64,000 nt of DNA from positions 186,001 to 250,000 of the forward strand of contig NZ_CP111036.1 in NCBI RefSeq assembly GCF_026248685.1, read 5' to 3'. The notes under the pieces were generated by a model. The model saw nothing but the letters and a program-made list of their open reading frames with translations. It had not been told where the DNA came from and did no database searches. How positions within the stretch are numbered: the first letter of the stretch is position 1; each line of letters opens with the position of its first letter. Position numbers and translations under genes: made by a program. This DNA is from Haladaptatus caseinilyticus (lineage in GTDB: Archaea; Halobacteriota; Halobacteria; Halobacteriales; Haladaptataceae). Shown here piece by piece: positions 20,780 through 48,255 of this stretch.

Positions 20780-20886
20780 TGCCGAACACCTGGACGCATT
20801 GTCATTGCGCGTTTGCAGTACGACTGGGCGCAAAAGGTTTCCGTACTACGACGGAAAACGGGATGGGTCGCCTCGGGTTCTATCTA

Positions 20887-22206
20887 CTATAGCGCGTAGA
20901 GGTTCACCGCGAGGGTCACCAGCAAAAAGAGGGGCAGTATCGTCCGAACGCTCCATAGCCACGGCGTTCCGAGTGCGCGGGCGACTCCACCCGCGCCGGA
21001 GTCGAACTCCGCCAGTGCGTCCGCGCCGAGCACCCACCCAGTGAAGATGAGGAATCCGGCGAGACCCGCGGTCAGCATCAAGTCGACGAGCGTCCCCGCG
21101 ACGAACCCGAAAATGCCGGGGTTGAACGCACAGACAGCGCCCGTGACGAGGACGAGTCCGGTCAGCCCCACCGTCGCGTTCCGCCGCGAAACATCGTGTT
21201 CGTCCACGAGGTACGCGACAGGGATTTCCAACATGCTGATGGAACTCGACAGCGCGGCGAACAGGATAGCGCCGAAGAAGCCGACAGCAACGATTTCTCC
21301 GTAGGGTACCTGCTGAAACGCTCCTGCGACACTGACGAACAGTGCACCCGGACCGCCACCGGATGCAGTGTCGCTGAGACCTCCCTGAAACGCGAACAGG
21401 AGGGGAAACACGACGAGACCGGCCAGGACACCGACGCCGGTGTTGAGCACAGAAATGGTGCTCCCGTCGAACGCGAGGCTGTTGTCCTCGCCGAGATACG
21501 AGGCGTATGTTATCATCGTACCAACGCCGAGCGAAAGGGTGAACAGTGCTTGTCCGGCGGCGGCCCGGAGCATGTCGATAGGGTTCCGCTTGATCGGCGT
21601 CGGATCGAAGTCGAGATAGAACGACAGGCCCGCACCAGCACCGGGTTGGGTGACTGCCCACCCTGCCAGCACCGCAAGCAGGACGACGATGAGCGGCATC
21701 ATCACTTTCGTCGCTTTCTCGATACCGCCGCGAACGCCGCCGAGGACGACGAGAGCGGTTAGCGCGAGAAACGCGATTTGGAACGCCGCGGCCTCCCGAC
21801 CGAAGCTGATCGCGTCGAAGTACGCGCCGGGTTCGGCGAAGTACGACCCGGTGAAGCTCGCGACGAAGTAGCGAACGATCCATCCGCCAACGACGCTGTA
21901 AAACGATAACAGAACGAGCCCGGTTACGACCCCGAACAGGCCGACGTATCCCCACGACTTCGTTCCCGGCGCGAGGCGGGCAAGCGCGCCCGCAGGATTT
22001 CGTTTTGCGCGTCGTCCGATGACGAACTCCGCGAGCAGGCCGGGGACACCGACCAACAAGACGATACACAGATAGACGACGAGAAAGGCGCTCCCACCGT
22101 ATTCGGCGGTCATCCACGGGAAACGCCATACGTTCCCGAGTCCGACCGCGCTTCCGACGGCGGCGAGGATGAACCCCACTCGACTCGTCCACGATTCACG
22201 TGCCAT
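20887..22206 (-). CDS. NSS-family sodium-dependent transporter (copy 1)
   Basis: 439 residues, about 11-12 hydrophobic segments. TM1 carries the neurotransmitter:sodium symporter signature GSAVGLGNVWRFPWM, including Na+-site residues. TM6 region LFTLSLGVGTMITYASYLGE is also typical. The substrate is probably an amino acid or related compound, by family only. Next to a second NSS gene at 22489 on the same strand, separated by about 280 bp, so these are tandem but probably separate transcripts. Start ATG 22206 (MARESWTSRVGFILAA). Confidence 0.9.
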   Translation of the reverse strand: MARESWTSRVGFILAAVGSAVGLGNVWRFPWMTAEYGGSAFLVVYLCIVLLVGVPGLLAEFVIGRRAKRNPAGALARLAPGTKSWGYVGLFGVVTGLVLLSFYSVVGGWIVRYFVASFTGSYFAEPGAYFDAISFGREAAAFQIAFLALTALVVLGGVRGGIEKATKVMMPLIVVLLAVLAGWAVTQPGAGAGLSFYLDFDPTPIKRNPIDMLRAAAGQALFTLSLGVGTMITYASYLGEDNSLAFDGSTISVLNTGVGVLAGLVVFPLLFAFQGGLSDTASGGGPGALFVSVAGAFQQVPYGEIVAVGFFGAILFAALSSSISMLEIPVAYLVDEHDVSRRNATVGLTGLVLVTGAVCAFNPGIFGFVAGTLVDLMLTAGLAGFLIFTGWVLGADALAEFDSGAGGVARALGTPWLWSVRTILPLFLLVTLAVNLYAL

Positions 22207-22488
22207 TGCTATGCACTCGCCCGCCGACGGGTTATGAGAGTTTCGAGATTAGAAACGATCAAACTGTTGCAAACAAGCTCGATGAGGGGTAAAACACGGA
22301 TTTTTGAGACCGGTTTAGTGCGAAATAGGCTTGGGAGGTTACGATCCTTCAGAAGAAAGCCCCGCTATTTAAGTACGGGGCGATAACCCGACAGTTCCGT
22401 CCCGATCGATGGTTAGCAAACGCGGGGCCTTGTGTGAAGGGGAGGGTGACAAAAAACGACGATCGCGTGCGGTCGATTCGCTGAACGC

Positions 22489-23793
22489 CTACAGGAACGT
22501 CTGGATACTCAGCCAGAGCGTTCCGAGGACGGCGACGAAAACGACGGTTCTGATGTGCCAGAGCCATACCGGGCCGATGTTGCTGGCATTGCCGAGTCCG
22601 CGACGGAGTTCTCGGACGGAACCGCCACCGTAAATCCACCCGACGAAGAGGATAGTGAGGACGACGCCGAGCGGAAGCAGGATGTTCGACGCGATGTTGT
22701 CGAAGAAGGTGAACGTCTCGAGGCTGAGTGCCGAAGGGACGCCCAGCGCGAACACCAAGGTTCCGATTCCGACCGTGAGAATCGGACGGCTCACGTCGAA
22801 GTTGTCAACGAAGTACGACACGACGACTTCGAGGAGGCTGATGGCCGACGAGAGTGCCGCGATGAGAAGCACGACGAAGAACACGAAGCCGATGATTCCG
22901 CCCGCTGGCAGCGTACCGAACGCCTCCGCGAGGGTGACGAACACCGCACCTGCACCGGCATCACCGGGTTCGATGCTCTGTGCGAACAGAAGCGGGAACA
23001 CGACGAATCCGGCGAGAACGCCGACGAAGGTGTTTAGCGCGGCGATACTGATGCCGTCGCTGATGAGGTTGTCGTCGCCATCCAAGTAGGACGCGTAGGT
23101 CACCATCGCACCCATACCGAGCGAGAGCGAGAACAGCGCCTGCCCCACCGCGTCCGGGATGATCGTCTGATAGTTGTTCACGATAACGCTGAAGTCGGGA
23201 TTGAGGAAGTACTGGTAGCCTGCACCGGCCCCCTCGAGGGTGAACGCCCACGCAGCCATCCCCATCATCAGGATGGCGATCGCGGGAACCATGATTTTGG
23301 TGCCGACTTCGATACCTTTCTCGACACCTGCGGCGACGATACCGACGACGAAGAGCATGAAGATGGCATGGAACAGGATCGTCCCGTTTCCTGATGCGAT
23401 CTGACCGAAATACGTGCCGGGGTCACCGAAGTACGCACCGGTCAGGCTTCCGATGACGTACTGGATAACCCAGCCACCGACGACGCTGTAGTACGAGAGC
23501 AGCCAAAATCCGGTGAACAGGCCGAGTATTCCGATGAGGGCCGCACCGGGACCACCAAGGTTTCGGAACGCATCGACGACGTTCTTCTTCGTTTCACGAC
23601 CCACGACGAACTCCGCGAGGATCGCGGGCAGTCCGATGAGGACCGCGGCGATCAGGTACACGACGAGGAACGCCGCACCGCCGTTTTCAGCCGCCATGTA
23701 CGGGAATCGCCAGATGTTTCCGAGGCCGACTGCGCTACCGACAGCGGCCAGGATGAAACCCAACCGGGATGTCCACGTTTCTCTTTGTGACAT
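22489..23793 (-). CDS. NSS-family sodium-dependent transporter (copy 2)
   Basis: 434 residues from ATG 23793 (MSQRETWTSRLGFILAAVGS); a start five codons upstream is possible. Signature GSAVGLGNIWRFPYM in TM1 and LFSLSLGMGAMVTYASYLDG in TM6. Clearly paralogous to the 20887 gene but diverged in the C-terminal half. Couples Na+ entry to amino acid uptake by family knowledge; substrate not inferable. The sequence upstream is A/T-rich, with a plausible promoter near 23820. Confidence 0.9.
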   Translation of the reverse strand: MSQRETWTSRLGFILAAVGSAVGLGNIWRFPYMAAENGGAAFLVVYLIAAVLIGLPAILAEFVVGRETKKNVVDAFRNLGGPGAALIGILGLFTGFWLLSYYSVVGGWVIQYVIGSLTGAYFGDPGTYFGQIASGNGTILFHAIFMLFVVGIVAAGVEKGIEVGTKIMVPAIAILMMGMAAWAFTLEGAGAGYQYFLNPDFSVIVNNYQTIIPDAVGQALFSLSLGMGAMVTYASYLDGDDNLISDGISIAALNTFVGVLAGFVVFPLLFAQSIEPGDAGAGAVFVTLAEAFGTLPAGGIIGFVFFVVLLIAALSSAISLLEVVVSYFVDNFDVSRPILTVGIGTLVFALGVPSALSLETFTFFDNIASNILLPLGVVLTILFVGWIYGGGSVRELRRGLGNASNIGPVWLWHIRTVVFVAVLGTLWLSIQTFL

Positions 23794-24006
23794 GCTTGTA
23801 CGTGGCATTCTAAATTCTTAGTTATAAGCTGACCGGTGTGTATTAACCGCATGAACGTCCCAATATAGATTGTCTAAAAGACGATGTAAAAAATATCATT
23901 AGGCAATCTCTGCCGGAAATCCGAATTCGTGTCATCCGATAGCGAACCCCGATGTGGCGATTATTTTGCCGTTATCTCATAGTACACTATCACGTTCCGG
24001 ACAAAA

Positions 24007-24711
24007 TCATGCCTCACCATACACCGGAACCGCCGCCCCACTGGTCACGCTCGTCGCATCGCTACAGAGGACGCAGATGACCTCGGCGATGTCCGCAGGG
24101 GCGACCCACTTTTCGTGGTCGGCATCGGGCATCATCTCCCGGTTCGCGGGCGTGTCGATGACGCTCGGCATGACGGCATTGGCACGGACGACACCCGTGT
24201 TTTCCTCGGCTATCGACTCGATGAGCAATCGAACGCCTGCCTTCGACGCACGGTAGAGTGCGTCCCCTTCGCCCCCTTCGAGTGACGAGCGCGCGCTGAC
24301 GCCGACGATTGCCCCGTCGCGGTCCTGGAGGTGTGGCAGGGCGTGTTTGGACGCGAGAAACGCCGTTTTCAGGTTCACGTCGAACAGCAAATCGAACGTG
24401 TCGGCGTCGGTTTCCTCGACCGGCGACCCGCCCTTCCACGTTCCCGCGATGGTGGCGAGATGATCGATGCCACCGTGGTCGTCCACGATTTCGGCGATTA
24501 CCGATTCGACTTCGGATTCGTCCGTGAAATCGCCCTGATAGAAGTGGACTCGGCCGTCGTCCGGGAACGTGTCGTCGTCCGGTTCGACCACGTCTGTCGC
24601 GCAGACCGTCGCGCCTGCGTCTGCGAAGGCCGTACAGACTGCACGTCCGAGCGCACCGCTCGCCCCCGTGACGAGGGCAACGTCGTCGGTGAAATCGAAT
24701 TCGACGTTCAT
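24007..24711 (-). CDS. Short-chain dehydrogenase/reductase
   Basis: 234 residues from ATG 24711 (MNVEFDFTDDVALVTGASGA). The Rossmann motif is TGASGALG, the NNAG-like strand is replaced by LATIAGTWKGG, the catalytic Ser lies in VSARSSLEG and the catalytic Tyr/Lys in YRASK. The family reduces or oxidises a hydroxyl/keto group with NAD(P)H; the acidic residue after the second strand (CATDVVEPDD) favours NAD. Substrate unknown. Same strand as the quinone oxidoreductase at 24897, about 185 bp apart. Confidence 0.88.
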   Translation of the reverse strand: MNVEFDFTDDVALVTGASGALGRAVCTAFADAGATVCATDVVEPDDDTFPDDGRVHFYQGDFTDESEVESVIAEIVDDHGGIDHLATIAGTWKGGSPVEETDADTFDLLFDVNLKTAFLASKHALPHLQDRDGAIVGVSARSSLEGGEGDALYRASKAGVRLLIESIAEENTGVVRANAVMPSVIDTPANREMMPDADHEKWVAPADIAEVICVLCSDATSVTSGAAVPVYGEA

Positions 24712-24896
24712 GACTAGTGTGATGGCTTCGAACACCTTAAAATCGGATGAGGATACGAAGTCCACGTTCGATTTTTCCGCAGGTAACGACCGGGACAATG
24801 TATAATGTCGATAGCGACTGGGAACCGTATTCCGGTATCCGAAACATCCCCGTTCGACCGCCTCCGCTCAGGAACCTCAAACCACAAAATCGGCCC

Positions 24897-25853
24897 CTAC
24901 GGCTCCACGACCAGCTTTCCGAGGAAGCTCTCGTCCACGACGTCCCGCTGTGCGTCGGCGACCTCCTCGAGCGAGTACACCCCGGCAATTTCGGGGGCGA
25001 TTTCCCCGTCAGCGACCAACCGTGCCAGACGATCCAACACCGTCGAAATATCCGGGGTGTTGAACATGCTCATCAGCGTGATGGACAGTTCCTTGGAGCG
25101 CGCCCCGGAGATGTCGTCGAACCCTGCCGCAGAACCTTCGTTCCCGATGCCGATCACGCGAGCGCCGAGTTTCGCCACGTCGGCGTCGATCTGAAGATAG
25201 TCGTCCAACCGATGATCGAGGATGACATCCGGTTCGCCCTCTTCGCGGACTGCGTCCACGAGGTCGTCGCGGGCGTAGTCGAGGACGGTTCGTGCCCCGA
25301 GAGCATCGAGGCGGTCGTGATAGCTCTCGCTCGCGGTGGTCGTTACCCGTGCGCCAGTCGCGCTGGCCAACTGCACCGCGACGTGGCCGACGCCCCCGCT
25401 CCCGCCGTGGACGAGACATGTTTCGCCCGGTTCGAGTCCGGCATGGTCGATGAGGGCGCGCCAGGCCGTCACGCCGACGAGAGCGACCGCCGCGCCCTCA
25501 TCGAATGCGACACCGTCGGGCAGACGAGCCACTTTATCGAGGGGCGCCGTAAGGTACTCCGCGCAGGTACCCTGTCGGTCGTTCCCGAGGCCGGTACCGA
25601 ACACACGGTCGCCGCGCTCGAACGCCTCGACATCCGCGCCGACGGCTTCGACCACTCCCGCGAAGTCCGACCCAGGTATCCACGGGAGGTCGCCGGGTGG
25701 GTACGAACCTTCGCGGAAATAGGTGTCCACGGGGTTTATTCCGGCGGCGCGAACCGCCACCAGCAGTTCGTCGTCGTCCGGTTCCGGTCGGTCGATGTCG
25801 TCAACTCGAAGTACCTCCGGTCCGCCGTGTTCGTGGTATCGAACGGCACGCAT
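24897..25853 (-). CDS. Quinone oxidoreductase-like MDR enzyme (zinc-free)
   Basis: 318 residues from ATG 25853 (MRAVRYHEHGGPEVLRVDDI). Features are AAGINPVDTYFREGSYPP, IPGSDFAGVVEAVGADVEAF, and the NADPH-binding HGGSGGVGHVAVQLASATGA. The structural and catalytic zinc ligands of alcohol dehydrogenases are absent, as in zeta-crystallin-type NADPH:quinone reductases. A small CxxC protein gene starts divergently at 25907. Confidence 0.9.
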   Translation of the reverse strand: MRAVRYHEHGGPEVLRVDDIDRPEPDDDELLVAVRAAGINPVDTYFREGSYPPGDLPWIPGSDFAGVVEAVGADVEAFERGDRVFGTGLGNDRQGTCAEYLTAPLDKVARLPDGVAFDEGAAVALVGVTAWRALIDHAGLEPGETCLVHGGSGGVGHVAVQLASATGARVTTTASESYHDRLDALGARTVLDYARDDLVDAVREEGEPDVILDHRLDDYLQIDADVAKLGARVIGIGNEGSAAGFDDISGARSKELSITLMSMFNTPDISTVLDRLARLVADGEIAPEIAGVYSLEEVADAQRDVVDESFLGKLVVEP

Positions 25854-25906
25854 GGCTGAATTCACGGGAAGCGGGAAAATAAGTCCGTGGGGATCGAAAT
25901 CGGTGT

Positions 25907-26086
25907 ATGCCAACCTGCCCCGATTGCGACGTGTCGATGGACGCAGTGGATCACCAGACGTTCGGCGAGGAACGGATCCAAATCAAGCCGTCGGGCGGCG
26001 TGCTGAGCAGCCTCGGTCTCAAAGTGGAGTATCTGAACGCGTATCTCTGTCCCGACTGCCGACTGGTTCGTTTTTATGCCGATTGA
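25907..26086 (+). CDS. Small double-CxxC (zinc-ribbon-like) protein
   Basis: 59 residues. CPDC at residues 4-7 and CPDC near residues 48-51 (YLCPDCRLVRFYAD) form a complete two-knuckle zinc site, with a short beta-rich middle (RIQIKPSGGVLSSLGLKVEY). The spacing and hydrophobic C-terminus resemble small haloarchaeal zinc-finger proteins. The ATG is 54 bp from the divergent reductase start. Its 3' end overlaps the convergent TIM-barrel gene by 13 bp. Confidence 0.75.
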   Translation: MPTCPDCDVSMDAVDHQTFGEERIQIKPSGGVLSSLGLKVEYLNAYLCPDCRLVRFYAD

Positions 26087-26883
26087 GCTTTGTCCTCGCC
26101 GAGATAGCCGTCCAATTTGCGCTTGCTGAGTTCGAGATAGTCGAAATCGAAGGAGTACACCTCAACGGAGACGGTTCCGGACCAGCCGTCCCGAACCGGT
26201 TCGAGCGCGATATCGAAATCGAGCGTTCCGGACCCCGTCGGGACGTGTTCGTCCGTCGGGCCGCGAGCGTCGTTGACGTGGATATGTGAGATTCGGTTCC
26301 GGTGGTCGTCCAGAAACGCTGCGATGTCCTCGGCATCCATCCCGTCCACACGTGCGTGACCCGTATCGAACGTCATTGCGGCGTTCGTCTCCGAGAAAAT
26401 CCGGTCGAAATCGCGTACCGTAAACAGGATTCCGGGGAGGTTCTCGACGCAGATTTCCACGCCGTGCTCGTCACCGAACGAATCGAGTTCACGTATCGCC
26501 GACAACAGGTGTGGTTCTACATCCTCGACGGTCCACTCGGGTGGAGTGGCGTGGGAACTCGCGTGGAGAACCGCCTTTTCGGCACCCATTACTTCGGCGG
26601 TTTCGATACACGCCTTCTGTTCCTCGCGAGACGCTTCACGGATGCCCGCTCGGGGAGAACCGATTTCGATGTCCACGAACGGTAAATGAACCAGCAGGTC
26701 GATTCCTTCCGCGTCCGCCAGCGATCGAACCGCTCCGGGGTCGAGTTTCGTTCGCTCGGTCGCACCGTCCATGTACAGTTCCGCAAAATCGAAACCGAGG
26801 TTCGACCCCTGCTCGATGGCCTCCTTCCACGACACTTCCCCGGTATGGGTTTGGGTTACGAACCCCGTCCGTACCTCGCTCAC
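26074..26883 (-). CDS. Xylose-isomerase-like TIM-barrel protein
   Basis: 269 residues, AP endonuclease 2/sugar isomerase fold. Candidate metal ligands occur in barrel order: HASSHATPPEW, ICVENLPG, MTFDTGHARVDG, SHIHVNDARGPTD and VSVEVYSFD. The start overlaps the stop of the nucleotidyltransferase-HAD fusion by 4 bp (ATGA), so translation is coupled, which suggests a role in the same pathway, perhaps sugar or polyol epimerisation. The reaction is not inferable. Family members range from endonuclease IV to sugar-phosphate isomerases; the lack of the full endonuclease IV zinc set favours a sugar enzyme. Confidence 0.8.
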   Translation of the reverse strand: MSEVRTGFVTQTHTGEVSWKEAIEQGSNLGFDFAELYMDGATERTKLDPGAVRSLADAEGIDLLVHLPFVDIEIGSPRAGIREASREEQKACIETAEVMGAEKAVLHASSHATPPEWTVEDVEPHLLSAIRELDSFGDEHGVEICVENLPGILFTVRDFDRIFSETNAAMTFDTGHARVDGMDAEDIAAFLDDHRNRISHIHVNDARGPTDEHVPTGSGTLDFDIALEPVRDGWSGTVSVEVYSFDFDYLELSKRKLDGYLGEDKAQSA

Positions 26884-28436
26884 GACGTTCCCTCGTCGAT
26901 TATTCGTTGCGCGCTCGCATCGGACGATGCGGAGATGAACTGGTCGAGTACCGCGATGCTCGGTGCGACGAGCGTCGGGGTGATATCGCTTCGCTCGATG
27001 GCGGAACGAGTCGCATCGCCCGTCAACACGCAGATCGACTCACAGCCGACGTTTTCGGCCAACTGCACGTCGGTTTCCAATCGGTCGCCGACGACGAGCA
27101 CGTCCTCGGGAGCGTAACCGTTGTCGTCGAGGACGTGTTGAATCATTTCGGCGTTCGGCTTCCCGAAGACTCGGTCCGGTTTCCTGTCCGTCGCCCGCTC
27201 GATGAGTGCGCCGATGGAGCCACAATCGGGAACCATTCCATCGGCCGTCGGGCAAACCGCATCCGGATGTGCGAGCAGGAAGGTCGCCCCATTCCGAATG
27301 GCAAGGGTCGCTTTGCGTGCCTTCTCGTAGGTGAGTTCGGTGTCGAAGCCGACGACCACGTGGTCAGGGTCGTCGGCGGTAACGTCGATACCGTGGTTCG
27401 CGAGTGCGTCCCGCATCGCCGACGTTCCGAGCACGTAGACGTCGTCGCCCGCGTAAAGATACGTGATGACGCCATCGGTCGAAAGGAGCACGCTTTCGGC
27501 GTCGGCCCCGACCGACAGTTCGTTCAGTTTCGCCACGTAATCGTCCTTCCACCGCGAGGAGTTGTTCGTGAGGAAGTAGACATCGACGCCGGACTCCCGC
27601 AGTGTTTCGATGCGTGCTTTCGCGTCGTCCACAAGGTCGTCGTCCAGATAGACGGTTCCATCGAGGTCGAAGAAAATCGCCTCCTTCGAATCGAGCGACG
27701 AGAGCGAACTGAACAGCACGTCCGCGGCCTGTAAATCGTCGAAGTCGTCTATTTCGACCCAGCTATAGTCGCTTATATCGACCACTGTCAGGTCGTGGTC
27801 CCTGTTTCGAACGATTCTGTCGATGGCCACCTCGGTCCACTCACAGTAGTCGTTCTCCCGGTCAATGGTTTTCGTAATCTCGTCGAACAGCATCGTCGAA
27901 AAGTCCGCTGAGAACCGGTACACGTCCGCTGACGACCCGTGGGCGGCCTCCTCCGGAATCGCCTTATCGATATGCGTGATTCGGTCAGTATCGTCCACCG
28001 AGACCTTCATCGCCTCCTCGCTGAACGCTCCCGTATCGCAAGCTACCGCGCTGTCCGCGTCGGACTCCACCAGCGTCTTGAGCAACCCCGGATCGAAGAC
28101 GACATCACCGTTGCTGAGAATGAACTCCTCGCCAGCGACGTCCTCACTCGCGAGCGACAACGAATACATGTTGTCGGTATTCGCGTACACCTCGCTGGTT
28201 CTGACGGTTGTTTCGAGGTTCGGTCGCTGACTCTCGACCCGTTCGCAGACCGTTTCGACATGGTCCGCGAGATAGCCCGCGATGACCGTGACGTTCGTTA
28301 CACCCACATCGTCGTATGCTCGTAGCTGTCGCGCGAGAATCGGTTCTCCATCCACTGTCACACAACATTTCGGCTTGTGAAGCGTGAGCGGTCGAAGGCG
28401 AGACCCAATCCCTGCTGACAGAATTACCCCCCTCAT
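26880..28436 (-). CDS. Nucleotidyltransferase-HAD (NagD-type) phosphatase fusion
   Basis: 518 residues from ATG 28436. Residues 1 to about 240 are a LicC/PntC-like NTP transferase: MRGVILSAGIGSRLRPLTLH, then KPKCCVTVDGEPIL and near its end WVEIDDFDDLQAADVLF. Residues about 250-510 are a HAD-IIA phosphatase: IFFDLDGTVYLDDDL (nucleophile Asp), YFLTNNSSR, VFGKPNAEMIQHVL and VLVVGDRLETDVQLAENVG. One chain could dephosphorylate a polyol phosphate and activate another as CDP-polyol, or edit its own substrate. Sits between a glycerophosphodiesterase gene (112 bp upstream) and the TIM-barrel gene (4-bp overlap). CTP and glycerol phosphate as substrates are inferred from context. Confidence 0.88.
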   Translation of the reverse strand: MRGVILSAGIGSRLRPLTLHKPKCCVTVDGEPILARQLRAYDDVGVTNVTVIAGYLADHVETVCERVESQRPNLETTVRTSEVYANTDNMYSLSLASEDVAGEEFILSNGDVVFDPGLLKTLVESDADSAVACDTGAFSEEAMKVSVDDTDRITHIDKAIPEEAAHGSSADVYRFSADFSTMLFDEITKTIDRENDYCEWTEVAIDRIVRNRDHDLTVVDISDYSWVEIDDFDDLQAADVLFSSLSSLDSKEAIFFDLDGTVYLDDDLVDDAKARIETLRESGVDVYFLTNNSSRWKDDYVAKLNELSVGADAESVLLSTDGVITYLYAGDDVYVLGTSAMRDALANHGIDVTADDPDHVVVGFDTELTYEKARKATLAIRNGATFLLAHPDAVCPTADGMVPDCGSIGALIERATDRKPDRVFGKPNAEMIQHVLDDNGYAPEDVLVVGDRLETDVQLAENVGCESICVLTGDATRSAIERSDITPTLVAPSIAVLDQFISASSDASAQRIIDEGTS

Positions 28437-28548
28437 GAAATTCACCGACCCAATACCGCGACGTAGTTTGGTATAGTCTTGCTGGCTAGCGGTCAGTCGG
28501 TCTATAGTTCCCTCGATACGTGCCGATCGGTCGGTTCCCGTCAGCGGG

Positions 28549-29457
28549 TTACCGACCGTGAAACTGGAGGACGTTGGGATAATCCGTGATGATACCATCG
28601 ACGCGCGCCTGACCGAGTTGGGTGGCTTGATACCAACTTTCGACGGTCCAGACGTTCACGTCGTATCCTTCCTCGTGTGCGATATCGACGATGTCGATGT
28701 CATCGTATGGCCCAAGCGAGCCGTACTCGTCGTTGAACAGTTCGGTTCCGGCGACCATGTTCCACGGGGGATGAATCGCGTCGCACTCGTATCGACGGGC
28801 GATTTCGAAGCCATCGACGATGGATTCGGCGAACACTGCCGCGATGGGTATTGTCGCGTCGAGTTCTCGAACCGCCGCGAGCGCCCCCTCCGCGAACGAC
28901 GAGATCAATATGTCGTGGTCGTACGCCGCGAGTGTCGAGAGAACCCGGTCCGTGAACGGGAGCCATAACTCCTTCTGCTGTTCCCTCGCCTCGGGTGGAA
29001 GGTTTTCACGGGGGCGAACGTCGAGCGTTCCGGGGTTTTTGAACTCGATGTTTACACCGACGTCCGTCGGAATCGCATCGAGGAGGGTTTCTAACGTCGG
29101 GATCGTTTCGTCGGTACCGAGAACCGATACGTCATTCAGCGTGTCGTAGGGGAGGTTCCAGACGCGTTGGCTCGCGATCGACTCCGGAGCGTCCGTCAGT
29201 CGGTCGAGTCGGGTGTCGTGAAAAACGATTATCTCCCCATCCGCGGTCGGATGCACGTCGATCTCGATCATTTCGGGTCCACCATCCGGTGCAGCCGTCG
29301 CCTGCCGGACTGCTCCGATGGTGTTCTCGGGATACACTCCGGCGAAACCGCGATGGGCGATGACCGAGAGATCCACATCCGTGGCCTGGTCGAGGTCGGT
29401 AGCGTGCTGTTCGACGTTCGGAGACTGTCGTTCCGTCGTTCCGCTCGTGCGTGCCAT
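28549..29457 (-). CDS. Glycerophosphodiester phosphodiesterase (GDPD)
   Basis: 302 residues from ATG 29457. Catalytic signature: SVIAHRGFAGVYPENTIGA (HR and EN), then EIDVHPTADGEIIVFHD with the metal-binding E/D and catalytic His, followed by ETLLDAIPTDVGVNIEFKNP. No signal peptide, so cytoplasmic. The family hydrolyses glycerophosphodiesters to glycerol 3-phosphate (or archaeal glycerol 1-phosphate) and an alcohol. Its position between a TagF-like transferase and a nucleotidyltransferase-phosphatase suggests making or recycling glycerol phosphate for the same polymer. Confidence 0.92.
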   Translation of the reverse strand: MARTSGTTERQSPNVEQHATDLDQATDVDLSVIAHRGFAGVYPENTIGAVRQATAAPDGGPEMIEIDVHPTADGEIIVFHDTRLDRLTDAPESIASQRVWNLPYDTLNDVSVLGTDETIPTLETLLDAIPTDVGVNIEFKNPGTLDVRPRENLPPEAREQQKELWLPFTDRVLSTLAAYDHDILISSFAEGALAAVRELDATIPIAAVFAESIVDGFEIARRYECDAIHPPWNMVAGTELFNDEYGSLGPYDDIDIVDIAHEEGYDVNVWTVESWYQATQLGQARVDGIITDYPNVLQFHGR

Positions 29458-29606
29458 AGGATAATTCGGGCAGTTCCGCACATTCGGGACCGGTATGACG
29501 GTGCTGCCACCCTTGAGTCCGAATACGCCCAGTCGAACTTGAAGGTTTCTTTTTTAATATATGGCCTATCTTTGAACTCCACTGTGACAACGATTTTCAC
29601 AGTATC

Positions 29607-30893
29607 CTATATAGTTCGAACAGTGTCGTCGGGTCGGTTGGCATTCCCTTGGATCAATTCCCGTCGAATCGCGTCGTATACGGCCGCTGACTGTCGGCCA
29701 GTGTGGCTCACGTCGGTCAGTAACTCGTTCACGATGTTCCGTCGTTCCGTCCCGAACGGATCGTTTTCGAGCGTCCTAGATAAGGCATCGAGCAGTTCGT
29801 CGAAGTCGGTAACGACCGGTCCCGCTGTGATCGTATCGTAGTCGAAGTAGAACCCCCGCGTTTCCTCGTACTGCGTGCGGTCGTATGGATAGAAGACGGC
29901 CGGTCGGTCGAGGACGAGATAATCGAAGTAAATCGACGAGTAGTCCGTAACCAGCACGTCGGCGTGCCGGAGCAGGGGATAAACGTCACATCGTTCCGGG
30001 AGTCGAACGATCCGTGAGAGGTTCGGCGGCGGTTCGAACTGTTCCCGGGGATGCGTCTTGATGACGAGAAAAGCGTCCTTCTCCGCCAGAAATTCGTCGA
30101 GTGCTCGAAAGTCGAGGTGGTCCGCGGAACTTCCATCCGTCCCGTCCCGAAACGTCGGTAAGTAGAAAAGGACGGGGTGGTCCCGGGAAAGACGCTCCAC
30201 CCGTTTTCGAGCCGTTTCGTCCGTCCCGATGTGGCTCCCTCGAGGGGGACGAAAGAGCGCATCGAGGCGCGGATACCCCACAATCGTCGTTCGTTCGGCG
30301 TCGAGATGCAATCCGGATTCGAATATTTCGATCAGGTTCTGACCGGGGACGACCAGCCTGTCGAACTCGTCGGCCATATACTCGAGTACCGCTTTCACCG
30401 GTGCCGATTCGTCCGAAAATTCGGCATCCCACGAGATCGTTTTCAGCGGGATCCCGTGCCACAGCAGAACCGTTTTCGCACCTGCACAACACGCCATGGT
30501 GACGTCTCGATGCCCCTGCGTCAGGCAGATGACGCCCGCCCGGAGGTTCACTACTAGTCCCCGAATCGAATAACAGTGGTACGCTTCGTAGCCGGACGCC
30601 CGCAACTCCCGCACGACGCGCCGGTTTTTCGAGAGCCAAACGGGACGAACGCCGGTTCGCTCGTTTGCGACGTGCAAATAGAGATATTTCGCGTTGTCCA
30701 CGAACGCCTCGCTGTCACGCGCGCCGAACACCCAAAGGGAGTCGTCACGCGTCCACACTCCGGACAGCCGTTTCAACAGGGCGTACAGCATCCACTGAAC
30801 GAGGAGGATGGGGGACCATCGTTCGGCGATCTCGGAGAGTGGTCGATGGAGTGACTGTTTCACTGTGGCGAGAATCGATTGGCCGACTTTCAC
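29607..30893 (-). CDS. CDP-glycerol glycerophosphotransferase family protein (TagB/TagF-like)
   Basis: 428 residues taking GTG 30893 as start (VKVGQSILATVKQSLHRPLS); the open frame runs further up without a better start. Hallmarks of PF04464: LWHGIPLKTI, VGYPRLDALF, YLPTFRDGTD, KTHPREQFEPP, VTDYSSIYFDYLVLDRPAVFYP and YEETRGFYFDYD. A hydrophobic patch near residues 25-40 may dock to the membrane. In bacteria the family polymerises or attaches glycerol phosphate in teichoic acids from CDP-glycerol; acceptor in archaea unknown. First gene of the leftward cluster that continues to 26074. Confidence 0.9.
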   Translation of the reverse strand: MKVGQSILATVKQSLHRPLSEIAERWSPILLVQWMLYALLKRLSGVWTRDDSLWVFGARDSEAFVDNAKYLYLHVANERTGVRPVWLSKNRRVVRELRASGYEAYHCYSIRGLVVNLRAGVICLTQGHRDVTMACCAGAKTVLLWHGIPLKTISWDAEFSDESAPVKAVLEYMADEFDRLVVPGQNLIEIFESGLHLDAERTTIVGYPRLDALFRPPRGSHIGTDETARKRVERLSRDHPVLFYLPTFRDGTDGSSADHLDFRALDEFLAEKDAFLVIKTHPREQFEPPPNLSRIVRLPERCDVYPLLRHADVLVTDYSSIYFDYLVLDRPAVFYPYDRTQYEETRGFYFDYDTITAGPVVTDFDELLDALSRTLENDPFGTERRNIVNELLTDVSHTGRQSAAVYDAIRRELIQGNANRPDDTVRTI

Positions 30894-30970
30894 GATGCAA
30901 CTGAACGTCCTCCCATGGCAAAAATTACCTGCCCGCAAGGGGGTTCCTCGCCGGGAGTGAACCGGCGGGA

Positions 30971-48081: not shown

Positions 48082-48144
48082 TCGACGTCCTGAAAGACAA
48101 CGCCACGCTCGCTTTCACTCCTCGCCCTCGCTCGTCGAAGAAAA

Positions 48145-48229
48145 CGGAAGGGGCGGGATTCGAACCACGCGAAGCCTATCAGGCTCCCACCGACGAATCG
48201 GTGGTGCTCTACCACTGAGCCACCCTTCC
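48145..48229 (-). tRNA. Anomalous tRNA-like gene, possible pseudo-tRNA
   Basis: Minus strand. Acceptor GGAAGGG/CCCTTCC and D arm GCTC-AGTGGTA-GAGC are perfect. The anticodon stem CCACC/GGTGG closes an 8-base loop (GATTCGTC) instead of 7, so no anticodon can be read safely. There is a long variable region with a hairpin (GCCT-GAT-AGGC), and the T stem GCG(T)GG/CCCGC carries a bulged T. The ATAACAAAG motif lies 27 bp upstream, so it may be transcribed. It may be a damaged tRNA or a specialised tRNA-like RNA. Confidence 0.55.
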
Positions 48230-48255
48230 ACGTTCCATAGGTTGGTCGGAGCTAT

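Follow-up and report, generated by a model that had tools for sequence, protein, structure and literature searches.

A cluster of four co-directional genes in Haladaptatus caseinilyticus

The window, by which we mean the whole 64,000-nucleotide stretch of DNA analysed (positions 186,001 to 250,000 of contig NZ_CP111036.1), belongs to the 4.8 Mb genome of the haloarchaeon Haladaptatus caseinilyticus. Four genes follow one after another on its minus strand. They encode a PF04464 transferase, a glycerophosphodiester phosphodiesterase (GDPD), a fusion of a nucleotidyltransferase domain to a HAD-IIA phosphatase domain, and a TIM barrel of the AP_endonuc_2 family (Table 1). A first-pass annotation, made from the letters of the sequence, had named these families and proposed that they form a polyol-phosphate, or teichoic acid-like, pathway. 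Strong Pfam matches and conserved catalytic residues bear out all four family assignments. The gene layout was also described correctly: all four genes are co-directional, and the fusion and TIM-barrel genes share 4 bp (GTGA), which hold a start and a stop codon. The remaining intergenic gaps in the set are approximately 110-125 bp. Hydropathy analysis found no membrane-spanning stretch in any of the four proteins. At this locus, Haladaptatus litoreus and H. pallidirubidus are the nearest named relatives, with fusion proteins that are 82-83% identical.

Two gene boundaries have alternatives. The transferase could start at a GTG codon at 30893, the edge used in the first-pass annotation; homologues align upstream of this point. 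A longer mechanical open reading frame of the fusion, extending to 28598, overlaps the end of the GDPD gene.

Table 1. Genes and domains of the four-gene cluster (window coordinates).
Feature	Position	Strand	Remarks
TagB/TagF/TarF-type CDP-alditol phosphotransferase (PF04464)	29607..30938	-	443 aa from TTG start
Glycerophosphodiester phosphodiesterase (GDPD, PF03009)	28549..29481	-	no signal peptide or membrane segment
Fusion, LicC/PntC-type CTP nucleotidyltransferase and HAD-IIA phosphatase	26880..28436	-	518 aa, ATG start
N-terminal nucleotidyltransferase domain of fusion, residues 2-246	27702..28436	-	profile match to LicC/PntC
C-terminal HAD-IIA phosphatase domain of fusion, residues 250-505	26925..27692	-	TM1742-like
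Endonuclease IV/CbiR-like TIM barrel (AP_endonuc_2), probable metal-dependent phosphoesterase	26074..26883	-	

The four genes are inherited together

The first-pass annotation had staked its pathway on the four genes travelling together, and they do. Among 195 genomes of the order, 30 encode the full-length fusion. An orthologous transferase, defined by a score of about 560 bits or more, is present in 29 of these 30 genomes, once in two pieces, and in only 1 of the 165 genomes without the fusion (Fisher p ~3e-32, uncorrected for ancestry). The TIM-barrel orthologue has a similar distribution (25/30 genomes with the fusion versus 0/165 without). Fusion and transferase are gained or lost together, since both are found in four of the nine genomes of the window's genus and neither is found in the other five.

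We also read the gene neighbourhood in 26 distinct fusion-bearing haloarchaeal genomes, counting duplicates under two names once. All four genes are adjacent in 18 of the 26, in two gene orders. The order in Haladaptatus and Halorussus is transferase-GDPD-fusion-TIM barrel; loci of the Haloprofundus and Halohasta types have the order TIM barrel-transferase-GDPD-fusion. A third group has transferase and fusion together with an inverted GDPD gene and no TIM barrel. Overall, the transferase lies near the fusion in 22 genomes, GDPD in 24 and the TIM barrel in 21. Three genomes of Halorussus type have retained the transferase at a different locus, and in one of these it adjoins GDPD there. In one genome the cluster is split into fusion plus TIM barrel and transferase plus GDPD, with both halves kept. 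Taken together, these results confirm the four-gene observation: the families are strong and the conservation of the neighbourhood goes far beyond chance.

Some variants of the fusion are worth recording. The fusion of Halorussus halobius (L036:10001-11800; 60% identity) has an apparent insertion in its HAD half. Local GDPD and transferase genes are absent there, and the pair sits together at another locus (L090). No plasmid record matches the fusion over at least 80% of its length; elsewhere, the HAD half alone matches. A distant nucleotidyltransferase-HAD-IIA fusion occurs in another class of the phylum (L100:9461-10981, L101:6048-7550 and L102:1254-2756), and hence such fusions also exist outside the haloarchaea. 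In this distant form GxGSR is replaced by AANDN, the neighbours are of glycosyltransferase type, and the first domain may be inactive.

The transferase retains the TagF catalytic histidines

The transferase matches Pfam PF04464 with E=2.4e-63 (214.8 bits). Residues 71-380 align with the catalytic region of Staphylococcus epidermidis TagF. His161 and His296, the counterparts of the TagF catalytic residues His444 and His584, are both invariant in 13 orthologues. Upstream of the catalytic fold is a conserved Trp/Leu-rich segment that could lie on the membrane. In comparisons of the PF04464-type domain, Cps3D and Bcs3 gave values of 1.8e-17 and 4.8e-10 respectively. PF04464 enzymes of known function use cytidine diphosphate (CDP)-alditol donors and membrane-bound or polymer acceptors.

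Two points of the first-pass annotation are not supported in the form given. Polymerisation is not favoured: the transferase is a single-domain protein of TarF size that scores far below the Tag/Tar equivalog cut-offs (94.8 of 550 bits for TarF, 67.2 of 1000 for TarL and 58.3 of 500 for TarB). Nor is such a transferase new to archaea; a PF04464-type gene, mru_1079, was already annotated under teichoic acid biosynthesis in Methanobrevibacter ruminantium (PMC5816558).

The nucleotidyltransferase domain resembles LicC and PntC

The AlphaFold model of the fusion has a mean pLDDT of 85 and a pTM of 0.83. The nucleotidyltransferase domain matches Pfam NTP_transf_3 (3.2e-10). Using a profile of 14 haloarchaeal sequences, the best solved relatives were LicC (3.2e-32) and PntC (2.7e-26). 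Three inositol-1-phosphate cytidylyltransferase-type entries came next, ahead of any sugar-nucleotide enzyme. By profile similarity, therefore, the five best solved relatives are enzymes that act on alcohol phosphates with cytidine triphosphate (CTP).

The domain contains the GxG(S/T)R...PK motif of LicC/PntC-type cytidylyltransferases. Residues R14, K24, K159, D112, E203, E229 and D231 are invariant in the 14 sequences. Alanine mutants of PntC at Arg15, Lys25 or Lys153 retain <10% activity (PMC6697681); these positions correspond to R14, K24 and K159. The CTP-type activation proposed in the first-pass annotation is thus supported as a prediction, by the relatives of the domain and by these three residues.

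In PntC, Glu104 and Glu196 are located at the substrate amine, and Glu104 is equivalent to Asp105 of LicC (PMC6697681). Glu196 is retained as E203. Conversely, the amine-contact acid at the Glu104 position is replaced by Asn110 in 14/14 haloarchaeal sequences. Because of this invariant Asn110, we infer that a neutral polyol phosphate is a likelier substrate than an amino-alcohol phosphate. A search of the genome for a TagD-type glycerol-3-phosphate cytidylyltransferase gave nothing above the cut-off (best score 37.4 of 165.4 bits), and LicD was not found in the genome. Therefore, the CDP-alcohol used by the transferase would most naturally come from the nucleotidyltransferase domain.

The cluster encodes three predicted hydrolases

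The GDPD matches PF03009 at 1.7e-33 (117.2 bits). Its catalytic motifs (HR, EN, ExD and HD) are kept, with H43-R44, E52-N53, E73, D75 and H88 invariant in 13 orthologues. The HAD domain of the fusion matches Hydrolase_6 (1.3e-19) and Hydrolase_like (5.6e-19), and exceeds the cut-off of the HAD-IIA subfamily model TIGR01460 (129.2 bits against 100.15). It is closest to TM1742 (1vjr; 38% identity, TM-score 0.93 by target length) and is 31% identical to the glycerol phosphate phosphatase Rv1692. The HAD motifs FFDLDGT, NNSS, GKP and GDRL are conserved.

The TIM barrel matches AP_endonuc_2 (PF01261) at 9.3e-34. Nine residues are invariant in 12 orthologues: H66, H107, E147, D173, H176, H202, D211, H213 and E241. 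Eight of these align with the metal ligands of Endonuclease IV (Endo IV) from Mycobacterium tuberculosis (5zhz), and all nine align in MJ1311. Conversely, the epimerase UlaE aligns at only four of the nine, which are those used by epimerases. The first-pass annotation had called this an isomerase-fold protein. The fold stands, whereas an isomerase role does not: epimerases top the Foldseek ranking, but a fold common to the whole superfamily does not settle the matter, and the pattern of ligands speaks against such a role. The best score against isomerase, epimerase or dehydratase models was 35.0 of 305 bits (fructoselysine 3-epimerase). Because it has nine invariant Endo IV-type ligands, the protein is more likely a metal-dependent phosphoesterase than an isomerase. 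Its scores do not reach the curated cut-off of any Endo IV model, and its best curated match is CbiR (76 bits against a cut-off of 105), a phosphodiesterase of the same superfamily (PMC7733943). We rejected a role in cobamide remodelling, given this sub-cut-off score and a locus in which no cobamide genes were recognised.

Haloarchaea commonly carry paralogues of the TIM barrel in other contexts (L105:9686-10474, with relatives in L106-L112), and these keep the nine Endo IV-type ligands. The Haladaptatus paralogue adjoins genes for a PfkB-type kinase and a nucleobase-permease-like protein.

Related genes occur in a second triad and in surface-glycan loci

The same genome contains a second transferase-nucleotidyltransferase-GDPD triad, arranged head to tail on another contig (L113:9900-12329 of contig C6). 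The proteins, a PF04464-like protein of 335 aa (41 bits), a nucleotidyltransferase of 223 aa and a GDPD of 232 aa, are very divergent from their window counterparts. Relatives of this nucleotidyltransferase (49% identity or more) were found in 14 genomes from several families, with the transferase alongside in 14/14 and GDPD in 13/14. Two operon types hold the same three activities. Hence, a shared pathway is much more likely than a chance neighbourhood.

Most other haloarchaeal PF04464 proteins adjoin, or are encoded within two genes of, a stand-alone nucleotidyltransferase. These pair loci also hold genes for GT2 and GT4 glycosyltransferases, UDP-GlcNAc 2-epimerase, polysaccharide deacetylase, a Wzx/MurJ-like flippase and a Wzy_C-type O-antigen ligase. 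The flippase, ligase and glycosyltransferase genes of these related loci place the transferase/nucleotidyltransferase pair in surface-glycan synthesis and favour a role at the envelope. In genome G065, which encodes the closest non-fusion relative of the transferase, a calcineurin-like phosphoesterase comes after this relative and a nucleotidyltransferase lies a few called genes off, so that the combination of transferase, nucleotidyltransferase and phosphoesterase is repeated.

Neighbouring genes and other features

The cluster is flanked on one side by sucCD-type genes and on the other by genes for a zinc-type dehydrogenase (24897-25913) and an SDR (24007-24798). Neither was accepted as an accessory gene. 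The dehydrogenase tracks the cluster in one family only and was treated as a neighbour. The SDR stays with the cluster in one family only, and the SDRs found beside the cluster elsewhere are 27-31% identical. Two adjoining genes for sodium-dependent (SNF-type) transporters lie downstream (20846-23808). They occur beside the cluster in Haladaptatus and Halorussus only, which is one family, and were likewise treated as neighbours. Two further candidates came from other genomes. A 398 aa protein encoded beside the transferase in Halorussus (c11/k6) is an unrelated Obg-like GTPase of the YGR210 type. In Haloprofundus-like loci, a called gene without a Pfam match (c26) is antisense to the transferase and was taken as spurious. 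Elsewhere in the window (48144-48230, minus strand), ARAGORN called a tRNA whose two-base anticodon it left undetermined; this may be a tRNA with an intron or a false hit.

A candidate CDP-polyol pathway and its alternatives

We think it probable that the cluster specifies a cytoplasmic CDP-alcohol pathway, which adds small alcohols in phosphodiester linkage to an acceptor in the envelope. The most likely of these alcohols are neutral polyols, for example glycerol. In a first step, the N-terminal domain of the fusion would convert CTP and polyol phosphate to CDP-polyol and pyrophosphate. The transferase, on the inner face of the membrane, would then use CDP-polyol to place a phosphopolyol on the acceptor with release of cytidine monophosphate. 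The acceptor may be a hydroxyl of a lipid-linked glycan or glycolipid, modified once or a few times. Thirdly, GDPD and the Endo IV-like TIM barrel would hydrolyse such phosphodiesters, and the HAD-IIA domain would dephosphorylate the released polyol phosphate, so that the pool is trimmed or recycled. Steps one and two draw on family knowledge and conserved residues; step three draws on co-inheritance. The weakest parts are which polyol is used, what accepts it, which way the HAD and TIM-barrel steps run, and whether any polymer forms. The teichoic acid-like logic of the first-pass annotation is supported, with a presumed substrate and a presumed glycerol-phosphate product. The evidence does not justify the name teichoic acid for the product.

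Several points weigh against this pathway. The co-occurrence counts ignore shared ancestry. Not every part can be essential, since five genomes with the fusion have no TIM-barrel orthologue and one (G162) has the fusion alone locally. No gene for a glycosyltransferase, flippase or lipid carrier adjoins the window cluster in its own genus, and we found no haloarchaeal polyol-phosphate envelope component in the literature searched. Finally, a phosphatase fused to a cytidylyltransferase could oppose it, if both share a substrate.

In a stronger form of the same proposal, repeated polyol-phosphate units would be built on a lipid-linked primer, with the single transferase acting as both primase and polymerase. 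The transferase does share its family with TagB, TagF, TarF and TarL, and dedicated phosphodiesterases could trim the chains. However, we regard a polymer proper as unlikely. A single-domain transferase well below every Tag/Tar cut-off argues against it. Moreover, bacteria usually employ a separate primase and polymerase, whereas the cluster has one such enzyme, and export genes are not linked to it in its own genus.

Alternatively, the cluster might make and degrade a small cytoplasmic phosphodiester, serving as an osmolyte or store, with no envelope component. All of the cluster proteins look cytoplasmic, and degradative enzymes are encoded next to biosynthetic ones. Pathways of the glycerophosphoinositol type employ CDP-alcohol phosphatidyltransferase-type enzymes, whereas the transferase here is PF04464, a family whose characterised members act on membrane-bound or polymer acceptors. 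Haloarchaeal relatives of the transferase also occur in surface-glycan loci. There is a precedent for a soluble route in the archaeal use of CDP-1-glycerol for glycerophosphoinositol synthesis (Rodrigues 2017, as cited in PMC8262930). On balance, we find a soluble product rather unlikely.

Somewhat harder to sustain is a salvage function, in which GDPD, the Endo IV-like protein and the HAD-IIA domain degrade imported glycerophosphodiesters, while the transferase, supplied by the nucleotidyltransferase, channels part of the polyol phosphate back into glycolipid or lipid head groups. GDPD and a HAD-IIA glycerol-phosphate phosphatase are a known recycling pair, the HAD domain resembles Rv1692, and haloarchaea live on algal glycerol. 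However, the cluster is not accompanied by a conserved uptake transporter, the nearby SNF-type pair being limited to one family. In addition, GDPD recurs in the second triad, beside a transferase and nucleotidyltransferase, without a HAD phosphatase. Breakdown is thus not the common core. Decoration with phosphocholine, phosphoethanolamine or 2-aminoethylphosphonate would suit the kinship to LicC and PntC, but is improbable given the invariant Asn at the PntC Glu104 position, the failure to find LicD in the genome and the CDP-alditol donors of known PF04464 transferases.

Significance

Haloarchaea lack peptidoglycan, and their described surface chemistry comprises S-layer glycoprotein, glycolipid and sulfated sugar. 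For this surface, a co-inherited module for CDP-alcohol phosphotransfer predicts phosphodiester-linked polyols, which could be sought directly. Should the head group be glycerol, its sn-1 or sn-3 stereochemistry would bear on the divergence of archaeal and bacterial envelopes. More speculatively, haloarchaea might have a polyol-phosphate envelope chemistry of their own: a compact CDP-polyol system with dedicated phosphodiesterases, an archaeal counterpart of teichoic acid, acting on S-layer or lipid-linked glycans and possibly using sn-glycerol-1-phosphate. We hold this only as a tentative possibility. If true, the compact system would combine a LicC-type cytidylyltransferase fused to a phosphatase with a TagF-type transferase. 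The literature searched contained no description of such a module in haloarchaea, of a cytidylyltransferase-HAD-IIA fusion, or of an operon of this kind that includes an Endo IV-like protein. Already known are PF04464-type genes in archaea (PMC5816558) and archaeal CDP-1-glycerol (PMC8262930).

Comparison with known systems

The M. ruminantium gene mru_1079 is likewise an archaeal PF04464-type gene. It belongs to a methanogen with a pseudomurein wall, and neither the fusion nor the phosphodiesterase set is described there (PMC5816558). The TagF-like capsule polymerases Cps3D and Bcs3 resemble the present system in having a PF04464-type domain fed by a dedicated CDP-alditol synthase. However, they are large multi-domain polymerases, whereas the haloarchaeal transferase has a single domain.

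The nucleotidyltransferase domain shares with LicC and PntC the motif, the catalytic Arg/Lys/Lys and the metal-binding Glu/Asp residues. It differs in the invariant Asn at the amine-contact position, the fused HAD-IIA domain and a PF04464 partner in place of LicD. Compared with Endo IV and CbiR, the TIM barrel has all nine metal-ligand positions of the trinuclear Endo IV site and matches CbiR best among the curated families, but it scores below the curated cut-offs of both and is found in another gene context.

The bacterial wall teichoic acid pathway (TagD/TarI, TagB, TagF/TarF/TarL) is a further point of comparison. In the haloarchaeal set, the place of TagD is taken by the LicC/PntC-type nucleotidyltransferase domain of the fusion, whose other half is a HAD-IIA phosphatase. 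The cluster, found in organisms without peptidoglycan, also includes GDPD and an Endo IV-like protein. Common to both systems are a PF04464 transferase with both TagF catalytic histidines and, for the haloarchaeal set within the same cluster, a CTP-type nucleotidyltransferase suited to CDP-alditol synthesis.

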